Assembly: GCA_946631855.1 (NCBI GenBank) | Contig: CAMPAL010000008.1 | Location: forward strand, 1 to 42,553 | Length of the DNA stretch: 42,553 nt | Direction of reading: 5' to 3' | Source: an uncultured Treponema sp. | GTDB lineage: Bacteria > Spirochaetota > Spirochaetia > Treponematales > Treponemataceae | Shown: positions 5,305-10,355 of the stretch, piece after piece | Position numbering within the stretch: position 1 is the first letter of the stretch | Layout: every line of letters begins with the position of its first letter | Program-made: the position numbers and the translations under genes | The notes under the pieces: generated by a model | Database searches by the model: none | What the model was told of the DNA's origin: nothing | Seen by the model: the letters and a program-made list of their open reading frames with translations, nothing else

Positions 5305-6747
5305 TTATTGTAATTTTGGATAACGATTGAAGTAATCCTTTGTTTCTTTAGCTGCAACACCAGAAAGTACAATCAAAGAAATACAGTTAGGAATTGCCAT
5401 CAAACCATTTGTAATATCAGCAATTGTCCAAACCTGTTTGATTGTAAAGTAAGGTCCAATAAATACAGCTGCAATGTAAAGCCAGCGGAAAATCTTAACA
5501 ATTATCATATTTCCTTTTGACAAGTATTCAAGACAACGTTCTGAGTAGTAGTCCCAGCCAAGAATTGTTGTAAATGCAAAGAATACCAGACAAAGCATAA
5601 GAAGGAACTGTACTGAACGACCATCACCACCAAGAACTTTACTGAAAGCGGCAGAAGTCAAAGCAATACCTTCTAAATCACCAGCACCTGCAGCATCTGC
5701 TCCAGTGTAGAATGCGATTACAATTGCAAGTCCAGTCATTGTACAAATGATGATTGTATCAATGAAAGTTCCGAGCATTGAAATAATACCCTGAGCTACT
5801 GGTTCTTCTGTCTGAGCGGCAGCAGCAGCGATTGGGGCAGAACCGAGACCTGCTTCGTTAGAGAAAATACCACGAGCAACACCCTTCTGCATTGAATCTG
5901 TAACCTGCTTAAAGAGCCATCCTGTAGCACCACCAGCAAGAGCCTTGAAACCAAATGCATTCTTAAAGATTACAGCAAAAGCAGCAGGAATCCTTGTAGC
6001 ATTCATAATCAAAATTGAAAGACCAAGGAATACATACACTACAGCCATAGCTGGAACAACTTTTTCTGCAACCTTAGAAATTCTTTTTAATCCACCAATA
6101 ATTACAAGTGCAACACCAAATGTTACAAGAAGACCTGCAATTACTACAGACCATGTATAATTATTTTCAAACAATGTGAAAGCAACATGTTTCATATCTG
6201 GGTCAATTGCGTTCTGAACAGCAGTTGTAATACCAGAAATCTGTGTAAATGTACCAATACCAAAAAGACCTACACAAACACCAAAAATAGCAAACAATAC
6301 TGCAAGCCATTTCCAGCTAAAACCAGTTTTTTCTTTCATACCTTTTTCAATTGTGTAGAAAGGTCCACCAAGAACGTGTCCATCAGCAGCGTGTTCACGA
6401 TACTTTACAGCAAGCATACATTCGGCATACTTTGTTGCAGTTCCAACCAAAGCAGCAAGCCACATCCAGAAAAGAGCACCAGGTCCACCACCAGCAATAG
6501 CAGTTGCTACTCCGACAATGTTACCAGTACCAATTGTTGCAGAAAGAGCTGTACACAGAGCCTGGAAAGAAGAAACCTCCCCCTTTCCATCGCTTTTCTT
6601 AAACATTGATTTGAAACCGCGTCCGAGCTTTGTAAACTGAACACCACGCAAACGAATTGTCAACAGGATTCCTGTTGCAAGGATAAGGATGATTGTTGGA
6701 ACTCCCCAAACAAAATCATCGATTTTAGTAATAATTTCTGTAAACAT
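5305..6747 (-). CDS. Sodium:alanine/glycine symporter (AGCS family)
   Basis: Inner-membrane sodium-coupled importer of alanine or glycine, about 480 residues with many hydrophobic helices. Family marks include the N-terminal MFTEIITKIDDFVWGVP, the block ALSATIGTGNIVGVATAI with GGPGALFWMW, and SNEAGLGSAPIAAAAAQT. ATG 6747 is preferred because AAAGGA lies 10 bases upstream; an in-frame TTG at 6786 falls inside the riboswitch terminator. The glycine riboswitch upstream points to glycine as a substrate or signal, a pairing known for this family. Confidence 0.95.
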   Translation of the reverse strand: MFTEIITKIDDFVWGVPTIILILATGILLTIRLRGVQFTKLGRGFKSMFKKSDGKGEVSSFQALCTALSATIGTGNIVGVATAIAGGGPGALFWMWLAALVGTATKYAECMLAVKYREHAADGHVLGGPFYTIEKGMKEKTGFSWKWLAVLFAIFGVCVGLFGIGTFTQISGITTAVQNAIDPDMKHVAFTLFENNYTWSVVIAGLLVTFGVALVIIGGLKRISKVAEKVVPAMAVVYVFLGLSILIMNATRIPAAFAVIFKNAFGFKALAGGATGWLFKQVTDSMQKGVARGIFSNEAGLGSAPIAAAAAQTEEPVAQGIISMLGTFIDTIIICTMTGLAIVIAFYTGADAAGAGDLEGIALTSAAFSKVLGGDGRSVQFLLMLCLVFFAFTTILGWDYYSERCLEYLSKGNMIIVKIFRWLYIAAVFIGPYFTIKQVWTIADITNGLMAIPNCISLIVLSGVAAKETKDYFNRYPKLQ

Positions 6748-6763
6748 ATTACCAGCATCCTTT

Positions 6764-6805
6764 AAAAAAAAATAAGAGCCAGCCAAACTTAGTTGAACCA
6801 GCTCT
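6764..6805 (-). terminator. Riboswitch expression-platform terminator
   Basis: On the minus strand, positions 6805-6775 fold into a hairpin of about 13 pairs (AGAGC..GCTCT at the base, several G-U pairs, loop UAA). TTATTTTTTTTT (6764-6774) follows, then the AAAGGA ribosome site of the symporter. The 5' arm overlaps the CTCTTTGGAGAG segment (6802-6813), which could form a competing hairpin. This is the likely switching point. Confidence 0.6.
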
Positions 6806-6835
6806 CCAAAGAGTGATAATGGGACATTTTTTATA

Positions 6836-6920
6836 CTCTGTCCACTTTGCCTGAGATATCAGCTTTAATAGCCTTAACCCTTCGGCGCTTCATAAGGATT
6901 TATGAAGACTCTCCAGAGAA
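6836..6920 (-). ncRNA. Glycine riboswitch aptamer (gcvT element), apparently single
   Basis: Reading down the minus strand: CTCTGGAGAG (6919-6910), a variable arm, GCGCCGAAGGGTTAAGGC (about 6887-6870), and CTCAGGCAAAGTGGACAGAG (about 6855-6836). These are the conserved blocks of the glycine aptamer. Only one full aptamer is visible; a short CTCTTTGGAGAG follows and may be a ghost second aptamer, as described for singlet glycine riboswitches. The terminator and symporter gene follow directly. Glycine may stabilise a form without the terminator, giving induction, or the reverse; the sign cannot be settled by eye. Confidence 0.85.
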
Positions 6921-6994
6921 TTACATGTACAAAACACGTTGTAAATGTAACAGTAAAAAAATACCAAAAAATTGAATTGTTATCAAGACAATTA

Positions 6995-7055: not shown

Positions 7056-7057
7056 AA

Positions 7058-7128
7058 GGAGTGGATAGGAGTCGAACCTACCAATGATGGTTTTGCAGAC
7101 CAGTCCCTTACCGCTTGGGTACCACTCC
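7058..7128 (-). tRNA. tRNA-Cys (anticodon GCA)
   Basis: 71 bases on the minus strand with a 7-bp acceptor stem (GGAGTGG/CCACTCC), D-stem CCC/GGG, anticodon loop CTGCAAA giving GCA, and a T-arm with loop TTCGACT. The base after the acceptor stem is T, the discriminator usual for tRNA-Cys. CCA is not encoded. It has its own promoter and terminator. Confidence 0.95.
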
Positions 7129-7170: not shown

Positions 7171-7224
7171 TGCGTATCGGGCTGTCATATGGTATTTTTT
7201 TATTTTTCTAACTATACTAAAAGA

Positions 7225-7337
7225 ACAAACAGCGGGGTTCTTTGAATGCCTGCCTGTTTTTCCATCCCGTAGAAGCTTAGCTCCGGGGTGTTTTCATATA
7301 TCTGGCTGATTAGGACCTTTCTTAATCAGCTTTTTTT
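7225..7337 (+). ncRNA. Candidate small RNA ending in an intrinsic terminator
   Basis: The plus strand between tRNA-Cys and the next gene (both on the minus strand) has a -10-like TATACT at 7213-7218, a hairpin AAAGAAC/GTTCTTT just after it, a CCCG/CGGG hairpin about 7266-7286, and a strong terminator at 7305-7337. No open frame is convincing. I do not recognise the RNA; it lacks the SRP, tmRNA and RNase P core motifs. The -35 is weak (TGGTAT), so the 5' end is approximate. No plus-strand gene follows, so it is not an attenuator leader. Confidence 0.45.
7305..7337 (+). terminator. Intrinsic terminator on the plus strand
   Basis: GCTGATTA (7305-7312) pairs with TAATCAGC (7323-7330), followed by seven T. 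On the minus strand no T-run follows the hairpin, so it acts on a plus-strand transcript. Confidence 0.8.
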
Positions 7338-7641
7338 ATTCCTCTGTTTTTTCTTCATCATATTCATTGGTTTTTGAAAGAAAGTAACGGTTGTTTATTT
7401 CCACCACCAGAAGGGCACATCCAGAATAAGCAATATTTCCAACAAGACCAAAATCTCTGAAACAGGCTACAACTAAAAGACCTGCCGACATAAGATAAAT
7501 TACAGCTTTTCTAAGAATCATTCCTTTTGAAATGGTGGACGAATCTCTAAATCCATTTTTTTTTCCACGAATGAAAAACCAGATCATATCCAGCACAATC
7601 AAAATCACCATTACCAAAACTACAATTCTGTTTGTATGCAT
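7336..7641 (-). CDS. Small membrane protein of unknown function
   Basis: About 101 residues, not recognised. An N-terminal hydrophobic helix (RIVVLVMVILIVLDMIWFFI), a basic stretch (RGKKNGFR), then two hydrophobic segments (AVIYLMSAGLLVVACF and VGNIAYSGCALLVVEI) and an acidic tail (EYDEEKTEE). It is too small for an ECF S-component. ATG 7641 is preferred over the ATG at 7650 because AAGGG sits 9 bases before 7641 but directly abuts 7650. It overlaps no gene but follows the Nudix stop within 16 bases, so it is the third gene of the ECF-Nudix unit. The plus-strand terminator overlaps its 3' end. Confidence 0.6.
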   Translation of the reverse strand: MHTNRIVVLVMVILIVLDMIWFFIRGKKNGFRDSSTISKGMILRKAVIYLMSAGLLVVACFRDFGLVGNIAYSGCALLVVEINNRYFLSKTNEYDEEKTEE

Positions 7642-7656
7642 TTTTATCATCCCTTT

Positions 7657-8214
7657 TTATGAATTATTCTCAACGAATTTTCTTAAAGTCAATCTTGCAC
7701 TTTCAAAAGCCAAAGGCAGTTTTTCTACATCCTCTAAAGATGCAACTTTACAAGCCTGTAAGCCAGAAACTTCACTCTCCTGAGCTTTGAGACTGGAAAT
7801 AAAATCATCAATATCCTTAAAGTTTTCTGGCAAAGCTACAGTAAAAAATATGTCACAGGTTTTATATACAATGTTTTTATACGGATATGTATTAGGATTT
7901 GTACAAAGAAATTTTACAGCTTTTTCATCAATATCAACACCAATTTCTTCTCTGCATTCACGAACAATGGCTGATTCTGCACTTTCATCAAAATCGACAA
8001 AACCACCAGGAAGTGCAATAAATCCTTTTTTTGGTTCTTTTGCTCTTACTTCAAAAAGAACATTTTTATCTTTATCATAAATTATAATTCCAACGGCAGC
8101 GGCAACATTATTATAAAGATCGAATCCACAATCCCGGCAAATCCACTTACGAAGTCCAGGATTTTCAATATTCTTACTGCCACACATTGGACACATATTA
8201 AAAGCATTTGTCAT
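7657..8214 (-). CDS. Nudix hydrolase with N-terminal zinc ribbon
   Basis: Cytoplasmic pyrophosphohydrolase acting on a nucleoside diphosphate derivative; the substrate is unknown. An N-terminal zinc ribbon (CPMCG, then CRDCG about 20 residues on) precedes a Nudix fold with the box GGFVDFDESAESAIVRECREEIG, which has the required RE..EE residues. ATG 8214 overlaps the TGA of the ECF gene as ATGA and has GAGGTG 6 bases upstream, so I prefer it to a GTG at 8223. Translation is probably coupled to the ECF gene. The zinc ribbon resembles that of NudC-type enzymes, but the NudC signature downstream of the box was not recognised. Confidence 0.9.
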   Translation of the reverse strand: MTNAFNMCPMCGSKNIENPGLRKWICRDCGFDLYNNVAAAVGIIIYDKDKNVLFEVRAKEPKKGFIALPGGFVDFDESAESAIVRECREEIGVDIDEKAVKFLCTNPNTYPYKNIVYKTCDIFFTVALPENFKDIDDFISSLKAQESEVSGLQACKVASLEDVEKLPLAFESARLTLRKFVENNS

Positions 8215-10355
8215 TTGAAACACCTCATTGTGATTGCATCAGCCAGAGCTTCAGATTTTTTTATAGACTGAATGATTAAAGGTACCATTAAAGGTATGAT
8301 TGCCTTAATTTTTGCAAAAGTTCCCCTGGCCCTGCCCAGTCCCCCTCTTATTATCTGAGTTTTGATGATTGAAGAAGCTTCGTCCACCAGCACAGGAATA
8401 AATCTGAAAATAATTTCAATTATAAGTATAAGATAACGGACTGGAATTTTAATCCATTTTAACGGAGTTAAAAGAATATTCAAACCATCAATCAGGTCGT
8501 GCTCAGGAGTAGAAATAAAAAATGCAGAAATACAGGCAAGAGAAGAATAAGTTCTTAAAATAGTGGCAATACAAAACTTTATTTTTGAAGGAGTAATTGT
8601 AAACCATTTCCAGTTTGTATATCTTACTTCGTCTGCTAAAGGTGCATGGAAAATCAACTGGAAGACTGAAAAAAACAAGAGGAAAGGCAGGATTTTAAGC
8701 CAGGCTATACATAAATTTTTAAAACTGAATCCGCAAAGTAAACAGTAAATCAGAGAAAGGCCAAGAAAACCTGCACATAATTCAAGAGGCCTTAAAGCAA
8801 GTGAAAATACGAACATTGTCAGAAATAAGAGGATTCTTAAAACTGCCGGTATTTTTTCCACCAGCGATTTGTTTTTTTTCTTTGAACCGGAAAGGCCTGC
8901 CGAAGTATTCCTTAAAGAAGAAAGCATCGAGACGGTGGAAGGAACTTCTACCTGTGAAAAAGACTCGCTTTCTTTTGCCTGAGATAAGGCACAGCTGTCA
9001 TTTACAATTTTTCCTGCCTCAATCTGAATTTCCCTGTCAGCAAAATCAGCTTCATCTCTTTTGTGTGTACTAAAAAGGATTGTTTTTCCTTCTGAGGCAA
9101 GTTTTCTGAACATATTTAAAACTTCGTTTCTTGCACGGCTATCAAGCCCTGCTGTAGGTTCATCAAACAAAAGTACATCTGCATCTAAAGCAAGAATTCC
9201 TGCAATTGAAAGTCGTCTCTGTTCACCACCTGACAGGGCAAAGGTTTTCCTTTCCGCAAAAGTTTCAAACGGAAGAGCCGCATCATCCATCGATTTTTTT
9301 ACAAGTTCTTTTAAAACCTTACCACTTTTCCCCTGATTTCTTGGACCAAATGCTACATCATCTGCGGCAAATGCTTCAAAAAGAGCAGCCTTTGCATTCT
9401 GAAGTGCTAAAACAGGCCGTCCTTCCGCTTTTATACTTACACCAGGAGTTTCTTCCGCTTTCAGAAGGCCTGCACACAATTCAAGAATGGTAGACTTTCC
9501 GGCTCCAGAAGGGCCTGTAAGCGCGGTGATACTTCCTTTGTAAAGATCAAAATTGATATTTGAAACTCCATGTTTTTTTTCAGAAGAATCATAAGAAAAA
9601 TTTAACTCTCTTACCGACAAAGTTTTTTCTTTATTTTCACGTTGAGCAAGGACAGATTTATCACAAACAGGAAGAGGCTTGCCTTCTATTCTGAAAAGAT
9701 TATCAGGATTTTCAAAAAATGCCCGCTTAGTTCCGTAAAAGAAAACCTTCCCGTTTTCCATTCCAATTACAGTATCCGCTTCTTTTACAACCTCAATATC
9801 ATGAGTGATTTGGATAATAGTATTTCCACATTTGTGCCAGTATTTTACAAAATCAAGAATTTCCCTTCTGGAAACAGGATCTAGCATAGAAATAGCTTCA
9901 TCAAGAATTAAAATTTCTGGTCTTAAAGCAATTACTCCGCTAAGAGCAATTTTCTGAGTCTGACCAAGAGAAAGTGCCGAACTTGAAGAAGAGGCTCTGT
10001 CCAGCATATCAACAATATTTAATGATTCTATAGTTCTTAATTCAACTTCACTTTTAGAAAGCCCAAGATTTTGAGGACCAAAAGCAGTATCCCGGGAAAC
10101 AAGTCCGCTCACCAGCTGATCTTTTGGATGCTGAAAAACAATTCCTATCTGCTGATTTTTTTCTACAAGAATTTCCCCAGAATCAGGATTTTCCAGGCCA
10201 CACAAAAGTCTCGCAATCGTACTCTTTCCGCTTCCGTTATAACCAATAATTGCGGTGTAGGCACCTTTTTCAATGGCGAAAGAAACGTCATCCACCGCGT
10301 TACGTTTACTCTGAGGATATTTAAATATTAGATTTTTAACAGAAATTACGCTCAA
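8211..10355 (-). CDS. Fused ECF energy-coupling module: EcfA-EcfA-EcfT in one protein
   Basis: 714 residues combining all three subunits of an energy-coupling-factor transporter. ATPase 1: Walker A GYNGSGKST (38-46), signature LSLGQ (129-133), Walker B ILILDE (148-153), H185. ATPase 2: Walker A GPSGAGKST (281-289), LSGGE (374-378), VLLFDE (394-399), H431. After a Ser/Lys-rich linker (about 465-500), residues 500-714 are EcfT, with several membrane helices and a coupling-helix ARG (676-678). The first signature is off-consensus (Leu for Gly), so the two sites may be unequal. The module energises vitamin or metal uptake with a separate S-component; none is adjacent. The start is TTG without a ribosome site, about 10 bases from a -10 box. 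Confidence 0.92.
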   Translation of the reverse strand: MSVISVKNLIFKYPQSKRNAVDDVSFAIEKGAYTAIIGYNGSGKSTIARLLCGLENPDSGEILVEKNQQIGIVFQHPKDQLVSGLVSRDTAFGPQNLGLSKSEVELRTIESLNIVDMLDRASSSSSALSLGQTQKIALSGVIALRPEILILDEAISMLDPVSRREILDFVKYWHKCGNTIIQITHDIEVVKEADTVIGMENGKVFFYGTKRAFFENPDNLFRIEGKPLPVCDKSVLAQRENKEKTLSVRELNFSYDSSEKKHGVSNINFDLYKGSITALTGPSGAGKSTILELCAGLLKAEETPGVSIKAEGRPVLALQNAKAALFEAFAADDVAFGPRNQGKSGKVLKELVKKSMDDAALPFETFAERKTFALSGGEQRRLSIAGILALDADVLLFDEPTAGLDSRARNEVLNMFRKLASEGKTILFSTHKRDEADFADREIQIEAGKIVNDSCALSQAKESESFSQVEVPSTVSMLSSLRNTSAGLSGSKKKNKSLVEKIPAVLRILLFLTMFVFSLALRPLELCAGFLGLSLIYCLLCGFSFKNLCIAWLKILPFLLFFSVFQLIFHAPLADEVRYTNWKWFTITPSKIKFCIATILRTYSSLACISAFFISTPEHDLIDGLNILLTPLKWIKIPVRYLILIIEIIFRFIPVLVDEASSIIKTQIIRGGLGRARGTFAKIKAIIPLMVPLIIQSIKKSEALADAITMRCFK

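Follow-up and report, generated by a model that had tools for sequence, protein, structure and literature searches.

The window analysed here, a 42,553-nucleotide stretch of DNA from an uncultured Treponema sp., carries a strong plus-strand terminator between two minus-strand genes, which raises the question of what transcript ends there. A sequence-only reading had proposed an unassigned small RNA running opposite to its neighbours. The relevant features of the locus are as follows.

7225-7337, plus strand: whole putative small RNA, about 113 nt, its ends placed by the -10 box on one side and the terminator on the other
7189-7218, plus strand: putative promoter, ATGGTA-18 nt-TATACT, matching the consensus by eye at 8 of 12 bases
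7227-7260, plus strand: 5' hairpin, variable in sequence across the family, in which a hairpin before the core is the rule
7258-7262, plus strand: pyrimidine linker before the core, consensus YYUUC from the A5 column counts
7263-7290, plus strand: conserved core hairpin, from pair counts and the match of models R1, R2 and R3 at 7258-7302
7263-7269/7284-7290, plus strand: outer helix of the core, 7 bp
7270-7271, 7272-7283 and 7273, plus strand: bulge, single pair and bulge of the core, respectively
7274-7276/7280-7282, plus strand: inner 3 bp of the core, closing a triloop at 7277-7279
7291-7302, plus strand: AU-rich linker containing AUAUA (108 of 113 contexts have ATATA in the tail)
7304-7337, plus strand: intrinsic terminator, 12-bp stem (7304-7331) and U tract to 7337
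7057-7128, minus strand: tRNA-Cys (GCA), divergent from the RNA
7336-7650, minus strand: ORF of 104 aa for a small, apparently membrane protein, convergent with the RNA

The terminator was confirmed as a 12-bp stem followed by a U tract, and the TATACT box that had been reported upstream is present at 7213-7218, although the putative promoter (8/12) falls below the 9/12 listing threshold of the promoter scan. A scan over 4 kb found two terminator-like sites (3.5 +/- 1.9 in shuffled sequences), so that such sites are not enriched per se. The two hairpins previously drawn upstream of the terminator proved to be real: 7221-7337 folded with -39.8 kcal/mol versus -26.17 +/- 3.3 for shuffled sequences (z -4.13; none of 200 shuffles as good), and 7225-7337 formed three hairpins, the last being the terminator. 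Likewise, no ORF of at least 40 aa starts inside 7225-7337, in agreement with the lack of a reading frame noted before, and the sole ATG within the interval (7246, located by eye) opens only 8 codons and is absent from the 93%-identical relative L002.

A conserved and covarying core hairpin

When 166 bases were compared with 59 relatives by BLAST, L002 matched over a long stretch (93%), and five shorter but strong matches covered the middle of the RNA. Placed in register, these relatives had the core hairpin in common, as well as the AUAUA tail, with a different hairpin after each. Covariance models were built from 15 loci (R1), 67 matches (R2) and 102 matches (R3), and pairing was assessed in three alignments. 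The first (A3) held 14 distinct sequences, L007 (16 loci found, 15 used) and five repeat loci being omitted, and was not fitted to the structure. In it, the 7-bp helix was fully paired with compensatory changes in three of the seven pairs, and the covariation score was 0.342 versus 0.118 +/- 0.031 in shuffled alignments. The larger ones were fitted to the model and consequently lean towards its structure. In A4 (59 distinct sequences), 99.7% of the cells of 11 pairs were standard, eight pairs had compensatory changes, and the score was 0.488 versus 0.142 +/- 0.012. In A5 (102 distinct sequences, corresponding to 102 matches out of 100 loci), 99.7% of pair cells were again standard, 326 cells were double-changed versus 110.6 in shuffles, and the score reached 0.768 versus 0.234 +/- 0.012 in shuffles and at most 0.219 when the structure was slid; double changes occurred in 8 of 11 A5 pairs, which is no more than in the shuffles (8.0).

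Covariation extended to the inner core, where pairs 15-26 (G-C to C-G) and 17-25 (A-U to G-C) changed together (A4 columns), whereas the minimum-energy folds of single members draw this part differently. The helix letters vary freely, and a few apical and linker letters are nearly fixed. These are GC-NNA-GC at the apex (mostly NAA), C in the closing C-G pair, and the tail motif AUAUA. Furthermore, no pairing occurs between the bases next to the end of the helix (0.00 versus 0.19 expected). A pseudoknot of the tail with the triloop or the bulges was unsupported (best excess pairing 0.15). We regard it as virtually certain that this is a conserved structured RNA, and a chance origin is excluded by the covariance-model matches found throughout the genus with compensatory changes. 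Of the two hairpins upstream of the terminator, the core is conserved between species with covariation, and the 5' one tends to be kept as a hairpin but not in sequence.

Relation to described RNAs

A search with the Rfam 15 covariance models, covering the window and the loci of 15 relatives, placed no family on the RNA; the only matches were to tRNA and Glycine models, elsewhere. In the window this held at the gathering score, and raising E up to 10 added chance-level matches only, which agrees with the earlier failure to recognise a known family. The Glycine riboswitch aptamer of the window lies at 6828-6926 (minus strand) and precedes a sodium:alanine symporter gene (5305-6786, minus strand).

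Group 1 of the family resembles part of 5S rRNA, a likeness noted by eye. However, the 5S model (RF00001) matched neither the RNA in the window nor anything in its own genome, which is incomplete and in which no true 5S was found by that model either, and other sub-groups keep the structure without the 5S-like letters. On the failure of the model on the RNA and on these sub-groups, we reject a 5S identity. Carriage by phages was not supported, two exact patterns giving no match in viral contigs (exact forms only).

We found no description of this RNA in the literature searched, nor any small-RNA study of this gut and rumen genus; the search did not extend to the supplements of PMC8040213, so that an earlier computational listing is possible. 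The best reading is that of a new RNA family, absent from Rfam. The strong covariation among 102 distinct relatives, together with the lack of an Rfam match, favours the unassigned plus-strand small RNA proposed at first, as far as sequence can indicate. What had been missed is a genus-wide family tied to tRNA-Cys. Its significance lies in being a covarying structured RNA family, absent from Rfam and common in gut and rumen Treponema.

Distribution across genomes

R1 detected the RNA in 60 of 200 genomes of the genus at E 0.01, and its 9 matches among 296 genomes of a phylum-wide draw all fell in that genus, one of the 138 sampled. With R2, 107 of the 196 genus genomes searched matched at E 0.1, as did 47 of 291 genomes of the order at E 0.05, the latter in 2 of 82 genera. 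R3 gave matches in 128 of 274 family genomes at E 0.1, from 2 of 20 genera, some of the weakest (E 0.05-0.1) being doubtful; at E 0.01 it matched 29 of 392 genomes across the phylum, from 2 of 166 genera. The second genus with the RNA is represented by genomes G418 and G638, and there too tRNA-Cys precedes it. An exact pattern retrieved 36 stretches from a collection of named genomes, 35 of them carrying the label Treponema or that of another spirochaete; T. bryantii is among these with XBD1002, NK4A124 and B25. In B25 (L142) the RNA stands by tRNA-Cys, and for XBD1002 (L125) no tRNA was present in the 8 kb examined. The remaining stretch of the 36 (L146, 3168-3194, minus strand) is in a contig labelled Ruminococcus (MAG SUG987) and has no tRNA in the 8 kb examined; this contig is perhaps misbinned or mislabelled. 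Multiple copies were observed in genome G071, where three cores lie within about 6.4 kb (L115, 1566-8004), the third having a degenerate 5' strand that retains its pairing, largely as G-U.

A survey of absences comprised 30 genomes (G137 being without a match) and 31 places, and 29 loci were read over 190 nt behind the tRNA. The genus loci came from genomes chosen for lacking, or nearly lacking, a model match. By eye, a core-like or diverged element was recognised at 9 of 23 tRNA-Cys loci of the genus (G128, G072, G135, G068, G035, G140, G020, G009 and G148), and none was seen within the 190 nt at the other 14, or at six tRNA-Cys loci from other families of the order. The RNA is therefore widespread in the genus, but not universal. 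Behind tRNA-Cys in G009 and G148 (L232 and L233), there is a longer, related-looking element that the models missed and that perhaps represents a diverged subfamily.

Genomic contexts and flanking hairpins

The contexts were compiled from the 67 matches, which without the repeats L056, L078 and L086 left 64 loci; 50 more made 114, and removal of one identical locus 113. In 91 of these, a same-strand tRNA-Cys was found upstream at 27-399 nt, and in 72 it was within 27-46 nt. In relatives the RNA commonly lies where a tRNA 3' trailer would be, yet the tRNA is divergent in the window, as it is in L002 and L097 (3 contexts in all). In 12 contexts the RNA was behind xylB, a name given by TIGR01312 on one example (L081) whose peptides the other xylB loci share, and in seven there was neither neighbour, one of these (L198) being cut by the contig end. 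Downstream, 44 of 64 loci, including the window, had the next ORF of at least 70 codons in antisense, and 20 had it in sense (mechanical ORFs). A cis-regulatory leader or riboswitch calls for a same-strand downstream gene, and such control is disfavoured by the changing identity of the next ORF and by its antisense orientation in those 44 loci.

The flanks of the core were also examined. Where tRNA-Cys was no more than 50 nt away (72 loci), at least five consecutive T preceded the core in 62 cases; a more distant tRNA went with such a run in only 2 of 19 loci, and 3 of the 22 other loci had one. A counter of perfect stems recorded a front hairpin in 95 of 113 contexts (39% in shuffles) and a T-rich terminator behind the core in 77 of 113 (12% in shuffles). 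Since this counter misses bulged or long-looped stems, the 5' hairpin of the window among them, a fold test against mononucleotide shuffles was used alongside. Before the core, the mean z was -6.3 (near tRNA), -3.1 (farther) and -2.3 (others), and behind it -4.3, -5.3 and -5.2, respectively. Folds better than those of shuffles in all three classes indicate that the front hairpin tends to be kept, terminator or not.

These contexts bear on an explanation in which the core hairpin, set between two terminator-like hairpins, would be a cis 3'-end element tuning the termination, processing or stability of tRNA-Cys, with no function as a separate RNA. The frequent position behind a same-strand tRNA-Cys, mostly at short distance, is in its favour. 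However, the core is kept behind xylB, beside divergent tRNA-Cys genes and in the seven other contexts, and promoter-like sites precede the RNA in L097 (11/12) and L002 (9/12; ATGGCA-18-TATACT, homologous to the window site), both with a divergent tRNA-Cys. We consider this explanation unlikely, and the persistence of the core behind tRNA-Cys, behind xylB and behind a promoter of its own while the neighbours change favours an RNA acting in trans. The tie to tRNA-Cys, with its escapes to xylB and to an own promoter, thus provides natural experiments that separate cis from trans. A common promoter for the 26 stand-alone loci was rejected (mean best score 6.65 versus 6.79 in shuffles) and, with no promoter above chance in that set, tRNA read-through is a likely source of the RNA there.

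Proposed function and possible protein partners

We give an even chance to the hypothesis of a free-standing small-RNA family, often the 3' trailer of tRNA-Cys, that would act in trans without Hfq and with an RNA-binding partner. From the structure, conservation and contexts described above, we infer its transcription, processing, partner and targets as follows. In most relatives, the RNA would be made by read-through as a tRNA-Cys 3' trailer and then freed from the tRNA transcript by processing, and in the window, where tRNA-Cys is divergent, it would be made from its own promoter. An RNA-binding protein, for which KhpA or KhpB are candidates, may hold the core hairpin, and the exposed pyrimidine and AUAUA linkers may pair with target mRNAs in trans. 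The terminator-like hairpin before the core in most tRNA-linked loci counts against this proposal, since it should lower read-through, and so do the chance-level promoter scores of the stand-alone loci as a set and the patchy occurrence of the RNA in the genus. A more tentative idea, which we find possible but rather doubtful, is that the RNA level reports tRNA-Cys transcription via terminator read-through and relays this signal to other genes without Hfq, through the core hairpin and a KH-domain partner.

With regard to the partner, Hfq (PF17209), which an Hfq-dependent small RNA requires in its organism, was detected in none of 98 genomes of the genus and in 5 of 14 control genomes, a search that a diverged Hfq would escape. 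The KhpA/KhpB domain (PF13083) was found in all 30 relatives searched (18 in the genus and 12 outside), and the genome of the window has two matches over the cut-off. Because these proteins also occur in relatives outside the two genera, they are candidates rather than specific partners. According to two reports on Borrelia (PMC13285594, PMC11607428), the protein formerly called Hfq is now FlgV, KhpA and KhpB bind RNA, and annealing was accelerated by KhpA, by 1.2-fold in solution and by 2.1-fold in gels. The family may thus offer a handle on how small RNAs work in spirochaetes without a detected Hfq.

A different function for a bound protein would be that the RNA titrates or scaffolds a regulator without pairing with mRNAs. 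Free helix letters combined with near-fixed apical and linker letters are expected of a protein site, and the unpaired bases at the helix end agree with it, but the linkers could equally serve as pairing seeds; we hold this explanation to be improbable, and prefer a trans-acting RNA that would pair with its targets.

Antisense regulation of the convergent 104-aa gene was rejected as extremely improbable: the arrangement is convergent in the window and ORFs of about 97-117 aa are convergent in seven other loci (L061, L043, L003, L005, L046, L071 and L097), but the overlap is of only about 2 nt, and at the other loci the ORF that follows is of another size or on the other strand. The antisense 3' end pointed out by the sequence-only reading exists, but within the stop codon of that ORF, and the orientation opposite to the neighbours is true in the window; both are incidental because the neighbours differ between species. 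The 104-aa ORF itself was without a Pfam or NCBIfam match. Farther along, an ORF of 714 aa (8211-10355, minus strand) contains two ABC-transporter stretches plus a CbiQ domain and is an ECF-type transporter, apparently as a single fused protein.

Comparison with known systems

Intergenic small RNAs with an intrinsic terminator are commonly Hfq-dependent. The Treponema RNA is like them in being short, structured and terminated, with an AU-rich stretch before the terminator, and differs in its strongly covarying core and in the lack of an Hfq match in the 98 genus genomes. The nearest precedent is the Escherichia coli RNA 3'ETS-leuZ, alike in place but not in anatomy, which is a tRNA trailer and sponges RyhB and RybB (Lalaouna et al. 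2015, via review PMC8166272). Both RNAs lie behind a tRNA gene, the Treponema one in most contexts, and may act in trans. On the review's account, however, 3'ETS-leuZ has 53 nt and is excised from the pre-tRNA, whereas the Treponema RNA, which carries the conserved core hairpin and a terminator of its own, can also occur away from a tRNA; sponge activity is established for 3'ETS-leuZ alone. Finally, a large computational catalogue of candidate structured RNAs of human microbiomes includes the Treponema motifs HMP2_2105 and HMP2_3043 (PMC8040213), which are likewise covariation-based but, as outlined there, sit immediately before the genes for L7/L12 and L20.
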